Shown here: positions 23,460 to 29,388 of the stretch, piece after piece
Layout of the letters: the number at the start of each line of letters is the position of its first letter
Position numbering within the stretch: position 1 is the stretch's first letter
From: Robiginitalea marina
GTDB taxonomy: Bacteria > Bacteroidota > Bacteroidia > Flavobacteriales > Flavobacteriaceae
Length of the DNA stretch: 64,000 bases
Assembly (NCBI RefSeq): GCF_024006985.1
Contig: NZ_JAMXIB010000003.1
Location: 1 to 64,000 of the forward strand
Direction of reading: 5' to 3'
Position numbers and translations under genes: made by a program
The notes under the pieces: generated by a model
The model's database searches: none
Told to the model about the DNA's origin: nothing
The model's input: only the letters and a program-made list of their open reading frames with translations

Positions 23460-24767
23460 TCACTCCTTCAAATTTAAAAGGGTCTTACCAATGCTATCCC
23501 GCAGCGCCGGGTGCACCTGCACGGCATCGGCAAACTGTTTCCATTGATTTACGGTGTGGTTGATCTCCTCTACAATTTCCGGGGCCTTCTTGCAGCGGAT
23601 GGAGGCCCCAATCACCAGCAGATCGGCTTTGGTGATGTGGTTTCGCTTTCCGTTGATGCTCAGGGCGTGCTGGCTTACCCACTGGCTCCCCGGGCGGTAG
23701 GCATGGCACAGGTCATAGGCGGGGGCAAGCTCCCAGCGGCCACCCTGTTTCAGAAGAAAGGCAAAGTTCTTGGTATGGTCGTCGCAATTGCGGGCGATGA
23801 CGTTGAAGACCATCCTGCGGAACATTTGCTCGGCATCGGCATAGGTGAGTTTAAGCTCCCGCATGCATTGGAAGAGCTGCTCGTAACTGAAACTGCTGAC
23901 CAGGTTGTAATCGAAGTGCTTTAAGGCGCAAAAGGTCTGCACGTGGTGCTTTACATCCCCGTCTTCCCGGTCGAAGCGCCGGGTCATAAAGTGGGCCCGG
24001 CCATGCTCTTCCAGCAGGCGCGAGGGCATCATCTCAATGCCACAGGCCTTGGCCATGTGGTAATAGGCCATTTCTACCCTGCCGTAGCCATGGCTGCTCC
24101 CCAATTGCACATCGCTCACGCCATCGAGCTTGATCAGCCAGTGTTCAAAGCCCCTGGGCGCTTTGGTCTGCCCCGAGCGTACTTCCCCGGTTTTTTCATT
24201 CCAGGCAATGACCGCTTTCGGACGGGCGCCCCCCGCTGAGGTCCCGATTTTCAGGATTTCCTGTACGGCCTGTTCCTCGTCCTTTTGGAGGTTGGCGGTG
24301 AAGGCTTCGCGCCGGTCCAGCATTCTTCGGGCGATATCCACCAGGCTATCGACCTCAATGGAAAACGTCCGTTTGTGCTCCTTCAGGGTAGCGGGCTCAA
24401 ATTCAAGCGCGCCCATGCCGCGTTTGCCTATAAAACAGAGCATTTCCACCGGGTTCATGCTGTCTTGTGGCCGCCCTTGCCCGGCCAGCCAAAGGTTGAT
24501 CAGCTGGTTGCCGTATTTGTCGGGCAGGGAATCGGCCAGCAGTCCAGGCAGGCCCCTGAAGGTGTCCAGGGCGGGATCCCTGTTCGTGCGCAGCTCCGGA
24601 AAGGAAAACTGGTTGCGGTTATTGGAAAGGGGCATTTTAAGGGGCGCCAGGTCCCAGCCGCTTGCCTTAAAGCCCGGATCATACTCAAAAGTCGCCAGCC
24701 CGGTGGTATCATCCCAGGCTACGGCCCCTGCCAAACGGCCCCATATATGTACTTCCGCTACCTGCAC
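23460..24767 (-). CDS. hipA: HipA-family serine/threonine kinase toxin
   Basis: The 435-residue protein has the HipA layout: an amino domain (VHIWGRLAGAVAWDD, FSFPELRTNRDPALD), a phosphate-binding loop with a serine (GTSAGGARPKAVIAW) like the autophosphorylated serine of HipA, and the catalytic NCDDHTKNFAFL followed by YDLCH in place of DFG. Known HipA kinases modify glutamyl-tRNA synthetase and cause persistence. Start GTG lies 3 bp after hipB, in the classic antitoxin-toxin order. All catalytic residues I can identify are intact. Confidence 0.9.
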   Translation of the reverse strand: MQVAEVHIWGRLAGAVAWDDTTGLATFEYDPGFKASGWDLAPLKMPLSNNRNQFSFPELRTNRDPALDTFRGLPGLLADSLPDKYGNQLINLWLAGQGRPQDSMNPVEMLCFIGKRGMGALEFEPATLKEHKRTFSIEVDSLVDIARRMLDRREAFTANLQKDEEQAVQEILKIGTSAGGARPKAVIAWNEKTGEVRSGQTKAPRGFEHWLIKLDGVSDVQLGSSHGYGRVEMAYYHMAKACGIEMMPSRLLEEHGRAHFMTRRFDREDGDVKHHVQTFCALKHFDYNLVSSFSYEQLFQCMRELKLTYADAEQMFRRMVFNVIARNCDDHTKNFAFLLKQGGRWELAPAYDLCHAYRPGSQWVSQHALSINGKRNHITKADLLVIGASIRCKKAPEIVEEINHTVNQWKQFADAVQVHPALRDSIGKTLLNLKE

Positions 24768-24770
24768 GCC

Positions 24771-25127
24771 TTACCAGTCTGTTTCATGGTTGTTTTCCCC
24801 GGGTTTCTTCGAGGCAGGGCGCACCCGCTGCCGCTTTTCCCGTTGCAACCTGGCAAGGGCCAGCGGACTGAGTTTTTCCTGCACTTCAAAGGCATGCAGC
24901 ACCTGTAACTGGTCCAACACCCGTAAAACCTGCAAGAGGGTGGCTATGGTAACCGTTTCGCCCCGTTCCAGCAGGCTGAGGGTAGAACGGCTGATGCCGG
25001 CTGCCCCGGCGAGCTCCTCCTGGGTCTTTTGCTGCTCCATGCGGTGGTGCCGGACAAAGGCGCCGATTCTTTGGGCTATTGCCTTATCGCTCATAGAGGT
25101 CCATTCTGTGAATGGTTTATCATTCAT
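24771..25127 (-). CDS. hipB: HipB-like XRE antitoxin
   Basis: A 118-residue protein with a helix-turn-helix (KTQEELAGAAGISRSTLSLL, then ERGETV) near residues 33-58, matching Xre/HipB regulators. It immediately precedes hipA on the same strand with 3 bp between. It is expected to bind its own promoter, in the roughly 270-bp AT-rich region at 25128-25392, and to neutralise HipA. No clear operator motif was recognised there. Confidence 0.88.
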   Translation of the reverse strand: MNDKPFTEWTSMSDKAIAQRIGAFVRHHRMEQQKTQEELAGAAGISRSTLSLLERGETVTIATLLQVLRVLDQLQVLHAFEVQEKLSPLALARLQREKRQRVRPASKKPGENNHETDW

Positions 25128-25404
25128 TAAGCGTGCTTGTTTTAGATAATGTATGAAATATGATTCAAAATTAGCGCATTCTATTCAAAGTAACAAATGT
25201 TTGAATGACTTATCGTTCGCCAGGGCGGATTAACACCTTTAGTGAATGAATTAGGATTCATTGGCTGCAAGAAATCGAGCTATCCTAAATGATTATCCCC
25301 CGGGGCGATTATTCGGGGACACTCGCAATAACGTTAATGTTAACCGGCTTTCATGTTCCGGATAAACGTTACCTTGGAATACCTTTAACAAGTTGGCATT
25401 CATT

Positions 25405-27236: not shown

Positions 27237-27269
27237 TTTATTTTATTCGAACCAGAACAGCACTAAAAA

Positions 27270-27380
27270 GTATACTTTTAGGTATACTTTTATTTTTTAA
27301 ACATACTTATATGTATTCTTTATGTTGTTTGTTTATACTTATTTGTATACTTTTGATTTAATATTAATACATATACGTAT
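27270..27380. promoter_or_regulatory. Four-site operator array ATAC-N6-GTAT
   Basis: Four palindromes of the form ATAC, six bases, GTAT start at 27272, 27303, 27335 and 27367. Pitches are 31, 32 and 32 bp, about three helical turns, so all sites face the same side of the DNA. They fill the AT-rich region just before the HTH gene at 27396. Likely bound by that HTH protein, alone or with its Fic partner, for autoregulation. Confidence 0.75.
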
Positions 27381-27395
27381 TCATTACTAACAGAA

Positions 27396-27857: not shown

Positions 27858-28444
27858 AATTAAAATATGAAGAAGGACAAACCCCTTTAGATGAAAATGA
27901 AAAGGAAGGTCTGAAAATTAAGTCGATTACAACTCAGGGAGAACTGGATGAATTCGAACAGTTAAACATTGAAAAAGCTGTGGAATGGACTATTCGAACC
28001 AATTTAAAAGCTGAGAAAATATTGACTGAAAAGTTTGTAAAAGACCTCCACAAACGAATGTATGGTGAAGTATGGAAATGGGCAGGTGAATTCAGAAGGT
28101 CAGAAAAAAACATTGGAATACCCTGGACACGAATTGGCATGGAATTGAGAAACTTGCTGGCCGACACCAAATATTGGATTGAAAATAATACGTATTCGCC
28201 AGAGGAAATTGCTATAAGATTCAAACATAGACTAGTATCTATTCATTGTTTTCCAAATGGCAACGGAAGGCACTCAAGACTGATGGCTGACATTATCATA
28301 GAATCAATATTCGGGAAAGAAATATTTTCCTGGCATCAATCAAATATGGCCAAAGCAGACGAAACAAGAAAAGAGTATATTAAATCGCTAAGGGAAGCTG
28401 ATAATGGAAATATTAAACCGTTAATAGAATTCGCAAAAAACTAA
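27848..28444 (+). CDS. Mobile mystery protein B (Fic/DOC domain)
   Basis: A 198-residue protein with a complete Fic motif HCFPNGNGRHSR at residues 133-144 (HxFxxGNGRxxR); the histidine, acidic-position asparagine and arginines needed for nucleotide transfer are in place. It overlaps protein A by 10 bp, the signature pair of this family. Fic enzymes typically transfer AMP to a protein; whether this one is a toxin is not shown by sequence. No obvious inhibitory S/TxxxE/DG helix identified. Confidence 0.9.
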   Translation: MGLELKYEEGQTPLDENEKEGLKIKSITTQGELDEFEQLNIEKAVEWTIRTNLKAEKILTEKFVKDLHKRMYGEVWKWAGEFRRSEKNIGIPWTRIGMELRNLLADTKYWIENNTYSPEEIAIRFKHRLVSIHCFPNGNGRHSRLMADIIIESIFGKEIFSWHQSNMAKADETRKEYIKSLREADNGNIKPLIEFAKN

Positions 28445-28446
28445 AG

Positions 28447-28495
28447 CCAGCAACGGATAAACCCTTAAAACGGTTCATATACCAGGCCGTTGCGC
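28447..28495. repeat. Cassette-end palindromic element C
   Basis: CCAGCAACGG (28447-28456) pairs with CCGTTGCGC at the far end; the right arm ATACCAGGCCGTTGCGC (28479-28495) matches elements A and B (ATA, CC, GG, CCGTTG). It begins three bases after the Fic gene stop. Confidence 0.55.
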
Positions 28496-28579
28496 TTCAT
28501 TATGAGAAACTCAATTAAGAAATAATACCCGGGAGAGCCGAAAACCGACCACAATAGGTATTAAATAACAACCGAAACC

Positions 28580-29055: not shown

Positions 29056-29388
29056 GGATAGAAAACCTCGCACCTAGAATCCACCTGGGTTGGTACGCCC
29101 TGCGGCGTACCGACCAGAGAAGCCCCGCTCCTGCAAACAGGTCCCGAACCGAAGGGAGGGATAGAAAATCTTGCACTTAGAATCCACCTGGGTTGCTTTC
29201 TCCTACGTCGAAAGCGACCAGTTCGTCCCGCTACTGCAAACACGTCCCGAACCGTAGGGAGGGATAGAAAACCTTGCACCTAGAATCCACCTGGGTTTGC
29301 AGGAATTCCACTTCAATGAAGTTTTATCCTTCTTTCCTGCCTGGGTTCATTCACTGCGTGAATGGACCAGTTCGTCCCGCTACTGCAA
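29056..29388. repeat. Three-copy 103-nt tandem repeat with variable hairpins
   Basis: Conserved blocks GGATAGAAAA, GCACCTAGAATCCACCTGGGTT, GACCAG and CCCGCTACTGCAAA repeat, with unit starts at 29056, 29159 and 29262 (exactly 103 nt apart). Between CTGGG and CCAG each copy has a different stem: GGTACGCC/GGCGTACC, GCTTTC/GAAAGC, then two (GCAGGAA/TTCCTGC and CATTCAC/GTGAATG). Stems change on both sides, so structure rather than sequence is kept. A truncated fourth start (ATAGAAAACC) follows. Confidence 0.8.

Follow-up and report, generated by a model that had tools for sequence, protein, structure and literature searches.

A palindromic array of conserved pitch precedes the mobile mystery A/B gene pair of Robiginitalea marina and probably serves as its operator

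Background

Why do four regularly spaced palindromes stand directly in front of a mobile mystery A/B gene pair in Robiginitalea marina, and what sets the distance between them? The window, by which we mean the whole 64,000-nucleotide (nt) stretch of contig NZ_JAMXIB010000003.1 analysed here, carries a gene for a small protein with an XRE-type helix-turn-helix (HTH), mobile mystery protein A, followed by a gene for a Fic-domain protein, mobile mystery protein B. We find that the A family conserves a distance of 32-33 bp between neighbouring palindromes and not an exact number of helical turns. The four sites are probably an autoregulatory operator of the A/B operon, on which A dimers would form a lattice whose distances are set by protein contacts.

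The two proteins belong to the most frequent cargo of plasmids and islands that still lacks an explanation, and in the literature that we found they appear in gene lists only; the array offers the pair its first concrete, testable mechanism. The profile TIGR02612, which defines A, is exceeded at its cut-off in 40 of 395 Bacteroidota genomes and in 19 of 199 from the taxonomic family of R. marina (R. marina being counted in both), 225 plasmid records match A, and the pair occurs on plasmids of many Pseudomonadota.

Results

The array in the window

The pattern ATAC-N6-GTAT has exactly four matches in the window, all of them upstream of the A gene (Table 1) and at start-to-start distances of 31, 32 and 32 bp. 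Among 100 dinucleotide shuffles of the window the mean number of matches was 0.29 and the largest 2, so that none reached four. We also used a motif-free array model (palindromes at a regular pitch of 27-39 bp, with the dyad on or between base pairs). Its fit at this locus, with the pitch left free at 20-50 bp, returned gaps of 32, 32 and 31 bp and a score of 30.3, against 8.9 for the best of eight shuffles. The four sites and their pitches, as a first-pass annotation of the window had given them, are thus confirmed by exact matches, shuffles and array fit alike.

The sites occupy 126 bp before the A/B operon, and the most gene-proximal one stops 15 nt before the ATG of A (27396). The GC (guanine plus cytosine) content of 27261-27395 is 18.5%, and the operon lies inside an AT-rich island (31-40% GC) with flanks of 58-63% GC. 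At 10.5 bp per turn the four sites fall within +/-17 degrees of each other on the helix. The same-face arrangement proposed earlier therefore holds at this locus but less well in the family, where a 33-bp pitch would turn by 51 degrees at each step.

A wider genomic regulon of A was considered and rejected. Single matches to ATACN6GTAT in the whole 3.25-Mb genome are only mildly more numerous than matches to a reversed-pattern control (37 against 25), and matches paired with 4-30 bp between them occur genome-wide in the array only (three overlapping pairs; none for the control).

The A/B operon

The first-pass annotation had placed the array directly upstream of a mobile mystery A/B (HTH/Fic) pair, and both identities stand: A scores 136.5 bits against TIGR02612 (curated cut-off 122.6) and B 256.5 bits against TIGR02613 (curated cut-off 124.4). 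The A and B frames overlap by 10 nt in the window. The B frame is already open before the A stop codon in 126 of 128 loci, and B adjoins A in 128 of 136. B of the window has an intact Fic motif, HCFPNGNGRHSR, and the motif is kept in 121 of the 128 B homologues; we take the pattern of active-class Fic proteins to be HxFx[D/N]GN[G/A]RxxR. The layout, two small overlapping genes with the DNA-binding partner first, matches that of a type II toxin-antitoxin operon, and toxin-antitoxin behaviour of the pair is plausible.

In an AlphaFold model of A (predicted local distance difference test score, pLDDT, 74; predicted template modelling score, pTM, 0.47) the HTH is preceded by an N-terminal helix and followed by two long C-terminal ones, and the predicted recognition helix, the third of the HTH, spans approximately residues 55-66. 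A second model, of the A protein of locus L137, has the identical order of helices (pLDDT 72, pTM 0.42). A sequence search of the PDB returned no relative of A, and Foldseek with the A model gave weak HTH matches only (best expect value 0.1; the C-terminal helices were not searched alone). With VIA-align the model reached a Z of about 7 over residues 25-90, the closest folds to the A HTH being XRE/Cro proteins that include HipB, 434 Cro and SinR.

Spacing is conserved across the A family

We examined upstream regions of 145 A loci, of which 136 were usable (nine were partial, had no start or had a short upstream region); these were reduced to 55 representatives at <70% protein identity and to 18 at <50%. 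Upstream autocorrelation over the 55 representatives gave a Stouffer z of 18.6 at lag 33 and 9.6 at lag 66. The strongest lag fell within {31-34, 64-67} in 41 of them, compared with 5/53 further upstream, 3/55 inside A, 6/54 behind B and 4/55 after shuffling. At <50% identity, 13 of 18 loci had the expected strongest lag (z 9.8).

The same lags dominate in two taxonomic sets, both of which contain relatives. In 140 bp upstream of A at 40 Bacteroidota loci (4 of 44 having been dropped), the combined z was 16.2 at lag 33, 8.4 at lag 66 and 6.4 at lag 32, and the highest other lag was 8 (z 5.0). For 80 alphaproteobacterial loci (one of them titled cyanobacterium; all were kept, including L132, L139 and L157 with misplaced starts), the values were 25.2 (lag 33), 14.6 (lag 66) and 8.2 (lag 32), with a few short lags at z 4-7. 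The Robiginitomaculum metagenome-assembled genome (L145:1360-1500) has four near-identical units (lag 33, z 12.4) that look as if copied recently from each other.

The array model scored above a locus's own shuffles in 53 of the 55 representatives. In the 50 that scored at least 13, 119 of 124 gaps were 32 or 33 bp (31, 3 gaps; 32, 45; 33, 74; 34, 2), and 2, 3, 4 or 5 sites were found in 3, 21, 25 and 1 loci, respectively. The dyad lay between base pairs in all 55 representatives, as opposed to 28/53 and 26/55 in two control segments of the same loci, in which gaps scattered over 27-39 bp and mean scores were 8.3 and 7.3 against 24.3. From locus to locus the nearest dyad lies anywhere from 3 to 50 bp before the start codon, so that the array keeps no fixed distance to it. 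It is scarcely credible that these are chance repeats in AT-rich DNA: the low complexity of a stretch like 27261-27395 does favour TA-rich palindromes, but the shuffles and the same-locus controls speak against this explanation, as does the presence of the same pitch in GC-rich genomes.

Ten plasmid loci, all but one of them from Pseudomonadota, were added once the model was set (Shewanella, Vibrio, Thiothrix, Xanthobacter, Gemmobacter, Ruegeria, Rhizobium, Ochrobactrum and Euzebya; two of the ten share an identical A protein). With pitches of 20-50 bp allowed, nine of the ten had only gaps of 32-34 bp. The tenth, from Euzebya (Actinomycetota), fits only with the annotated start (gaps 33 and 33; score 20.0 against 10.5; strongest lag 33, z 4.0). 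The lag analysis alone gave the expected strongest lag in six of the ten, with the Euzebya start as chosen by the script.

The possibility that such arrays are a general habit of XRE genes was rejected. None of nine testable XRE genes below the family cut-off had a 32-33 bp array above shuffles; L070 has gaps of 33, 35 and 33 but scores below its shuffles, and a weak lag 33 (z 3.1) at the XRE genes L062 and L068 lacks support from the array fit.

Site sequence varies with the recognition helix of A

The motif itself is not conserved. The homologue comparison that the first-pass annotation had proposed found ATACN6GTAT, among the loci compared, only in the close relatives L028, L052 and L059, and what recurs across the family is the pitch and the palindromic layout. 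Elsewhere the letters of the upstream repeats differ, with AAGG..CCTT in some loci, GTAAAC..GTTTAC in others, TCAG..CTGA in Rhizobiaceae and GTATC..GATAC in Vibrio. In general terms, a half-site combines a variable arm, at -8 to -4 relative to the dyad, with a TA at -2/-1 (T 0.70, A 0.69; 82 loci).

We compared arms with the alignment columns of A by a partial Mantel test with overall protein distance removed, in those 82 loci (6 of 88 were dropped for a score <13; in this comparison L028 is fitted out of register). Residue 56 of A, the second of the modelled helix 55-66, correlated with arm sequence at r = 0.52. It was the sole column above the permutation maximum of 0.29 (100 permutations, all columns), the next column reaching 0.28. 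At residues 56/57, GA occurs with TATAC arms, QG often with GTAAAC, QT with TCAG and PT with TTAGG. As arm sequence covaries with a residue of the predicted recognition helix, A is likely to be the protein that binds the sites.

One site overlaps a candidate promoter

The Bacteroidota promoter consensus is TTTG / TAnnTTTG, as given in the available text of PMC2483708. Candidate -33 and -7 elements are found in the window (Table 1), and the site at 27335-27348 fills the gap between them. TAnnTTTG is present in 10 of 30 Bacteroidota representatives (shuffles: mean 3.2, largest 10). Eight of these ten have the middle of the element 10 bp downstream from a dyad and the other two have it 12 bp upstream. 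Six of the 30 carry TTG-N17-23-TAnnTTTG (shuffled sets averaged 0.29 and did not exceed 3). These results point indirectly to an overlap of one site with a candidate promoter in some Bacteroidota.

The placement of the sites also bears on whether the repeats serve a mobile element in replication, partition or transfer, as iterons or a centromere would. The pair is often plasmid-borne, as the plasmid records that match A show, and at L071 it stands beside parAB. Nevertheless, in several phyla, and on chromosomes as well as plasmids, the repeats keep the same place immediately in front of A, they are interlocked with the gene's promoter, and their arm sequence tracks the recognition helix of A, all of which makes a replication or partition function very improbable.

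Table 1. Coordinates of the array, the candidate promoter and the A/B genes in the window
Feature	Position	Strand	Remarks
Operator site 4 from gene (most upstream), ATACTTTTAGGTAT	27272..27285	none	Motif match, array fit
Operator site 3 from gene, ATACTTATATGTAT	27303..27316	none	Motif match, array fit
Candidate -33 element	27325..27331	+	TTG at 27325-27327 (20 bp before -7) or TTTG at 27328-27331 (16 bp)
Operator site 2 from gene, ATACTTATTTGTAT	27335..27348		Between candidate -33 and -7; final base doubles as the T in the TA of -7
Candidate -7 element, TACTTTTG	27348..27355	+	TAnnTTTG; consensus match
Operator site 1, gene-proximal, ATACATATACGTAT	27367..27380		Downstream of candidate -7; dyad 22 bp before ATG
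Mobile mystery protein A, 153 amino acids	27396..27857	+	XRE-type HTH, predicted repressor/antitoxin; TIGR02612, HTH_3
Mobile mystery protein B, 198 amino acids	27848..28444	+	Fic-domain protein; TIGR02613, PF02661

Discussion

What sets the pitch

Pitches of 21, 32 and 43 bp would all place sites on the same face of the helix, yet only 32-33 bp is used, and 33 bp is off by about 50 degrees per step. A distance held to within about 1 bp is to be expected if neighbouring dimers touch each other directly, which favours cooperative loading, and from this distance we infer, reasonably we think, that binding is cooperative. Alternatively, A might occupy independent sites without contacts between dimers, the sites being kept in step through promoter geometry or DNA bending. 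Single palindromes are good XRE sites and all four window sites face the same way, as such an arrangement would have it. It is nonetheless unlikely, since phasing would also permit 21-22 or 42-43 bp, the ten later loci used only 32-34 bp although 20-50 bp was allowed, and a 33-bp pitch is out of phase at 10.5 bp per turn.

If the array is an autoregulatory operator, an A dimer would bind each site through its XRE HTH, with one palindrome arm contacted by each monomer on either side of the AT-rich TA/TA step of the dyad. Next to a dimer seated on a palindrome ~16-18 bp long, about 15 bp would remain before the following one, space that B, or the N- and C-terminal helices of A, might fill, and contacts made by the terminal helices or by B would hold neighbouring dimers 32-33 bp apart. 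A, perhaps as an A-B complex, would load cooperatively and cover about 110-130 bp, and the loaded lattice would close off the promoter that has one site in its -33/-7 spacer. Once free A drops, through loss of the element, excess B or proteolysis, the array would empty steeply and the operon would be made again. With geometry fixed by contacts and sequence taste by a few helix residues, mobile copies could drift and so escape cross-repression.

The lattice might instead be set by the A-B complex, B acting as a corepressor that bridges adjacent A dimers like the toxins in conditional cooperativity. Overlapping frames and the presence of B beside A at nearly all loci agree with such a role, and toxins as corepressors have precedent in the available text of PMC3920265. 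We regard this as possible but doubtful: at L158 and L017 no B was found downstream, yet their arrays are strong. Other loci without B have weak arrays (L005, L029, L032, L071), and these are too few to decide the matter.

Several points weigh against an operator of fixed pitch read by A. Five of the 55 representatives (L008, L023, L029, L078 and L142) score <13, related sequences are not independent, and 33 bp does not make up a whole number of 10.5-bp turns, which means that plain helical phasing misfits some members. The permutation test on residue 56 ignores the tree. As for the promoter, one shuffled set in 300 equalled the TAnnTTTG count, some sites have arms that form part of TAnnTTTG and thereby partly fix the register by themselves, and an analogous placement was found in 8 of 41 Pseudomonadota (slid controls up to 3), which leaves the alphaproteobacterial promoter register suggestive only.

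More tentatively, and with somewhat less than even confidence, we suggest that A, with or without B, may be a lattice-forming repressor, a one-dimensional polymer with a three-turn repeat (32-33 bp), in which the number of sites (mostly 3-4) would set the sharpness of the switch. Its geometry would have stayed frozen from phylum to phylum, with sites and DNA-reading residues changing in step, which would insulate mobile copies from each other. If this is true, fixed pitch combined with free sequence would be a rule for finding operators of the A family, and perhaps of others, without a motif. Such evolution of an operator, with geometry kept and sequence free, is unusual, and the dozens of natural pairs of site and recognition helix could become a ready-made set of orthogonal repressors.

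Comparison with known operators

The closest parallel is hipBA of E. coli, a two-gene operon with an XRE/HTH antitoxin-repressor, HipB, and four palindromes (TATCCN8GGATA) before the gene, at which binding is cooperative and the toxin is a corepressor, as far as the available text of PMC3920265 goes; HipB structures are also among the fold matches of the A HTH. In contrast to the 31/32/32 bp and ATACN6GTAT of the A gene studied here, the pitch at hipBA is irregular (28, 39 and 28 bp by the pattern in K-12), and the array model returned a single gap of 28 there. The window array has neither TATCCN8GGATA nor the 28/39/28 spacing and is not a four-site operator of the hipBA type. HipB is partnered by the kinase HipA and not by a Fic protein, and A differs further by two additional long helices at its C-terminal end.

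PaaR2 (paaR2-paaA2-parE2, prophage CP-933P) also acts at a multi-site HTH operator and forms octamers, but its partly available description, which gives no pitch, is of a CI/Cro-like switch with two divergent promoters, a three-gene operon and ParE rather than Fic as toxin. YefM-YoeB shows cooperative binding to two palindromes at a fixed distance of 12 bp, which a change of spacing abolishes, and has paired motifs that recur across many genomes (available text of PMC3920265 and PMC4803016); it differs in having two sites about one turn apart, another antitoxin fold and a core hexamer that is conserved and does not drift. The Xre-RES system of P. putida resembles A/B in its XRE antitoxin, operon autorepression and higher-order complex on two DNA sites, but the accessible part of PMC12204516 gives sites ~20 bp apart (one of them predicted), a RES toxin and a 4:2 complex.

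Fic/Doc proteins with XRE partners have been listed as Fic_Doc-xre neighbours (22 pairs) in a type II survey (PMC2701414), in whose available text the word 'mystery' is absent and operator layout is not discussed. Our literature search, which did not cover most subscription papers or preprints, returned no operator described for the mystery A/B pair and none whose pitch is kept across phyla while its sequence drifts with the reading helix. Multi-site HTH operators as such are already known, those of HipB and PaaR2 being examples; for the A family, our search met no account of a constant pitch combined with changing sequence.

Mobility and genomic setting

B matches the hidden Markov model (HMM) of the PADLOC candidate defence system PDC-S04 (expect value 3.5e-20). 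PDC-S04 had no defence activity in the one host of one study (PMC12409345, available text), and a survey of Tn7 cargo places TIGR02613 under Fic/Doc in the part available (PMC8649781). In Shewanella sp. ANA-3 (L166) the pair has a Qat anti-phage system (qatCD) on one side and a type I restriction gene on the other, a defence-island setting. A phage origin was rejected, with no match in a phage collection and none in viral contigs (one query, a weak test).

Between 25380 and 28500 of the window, four short ends of the form (C)CGTTG(G/T/C).. occur near 25391, 26652, 27226 and 28487, each before a gene in the AT-rich island. They resemble the 3' ends of integron attC sites, and the cassettes would hold the genes for a serine hydrolase, a 177-amino-acid membrane protein, the A/B pair and a SnoaL-like protein. 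Better folding than in shuffles was seen for the bottom strand of 28444-28498 (z -2.7) but not for three other stretches, and no integron integrase over cut-off was found in the R. marina genome. GTTGGC also occurs 148-166 nt before A in L011, L028, L054 and L059.

Just upstream of the AT-rich island, on the minus strand at 23460-25127, is a HipB-like/HipA-like pair of the YjjJ type. Its hipB-like gene (24771-25127) has no lag 32/33 upstream, and the 41-bp gaps that the array fit returned there scored only a little over shuffles (15.4 against 13.4). On the other side of the operon, a 52-nt repeat occurs three times at 103-bp spacing (29056-29313) in the stretch that separates the SnoaL-like gene from those that follow.
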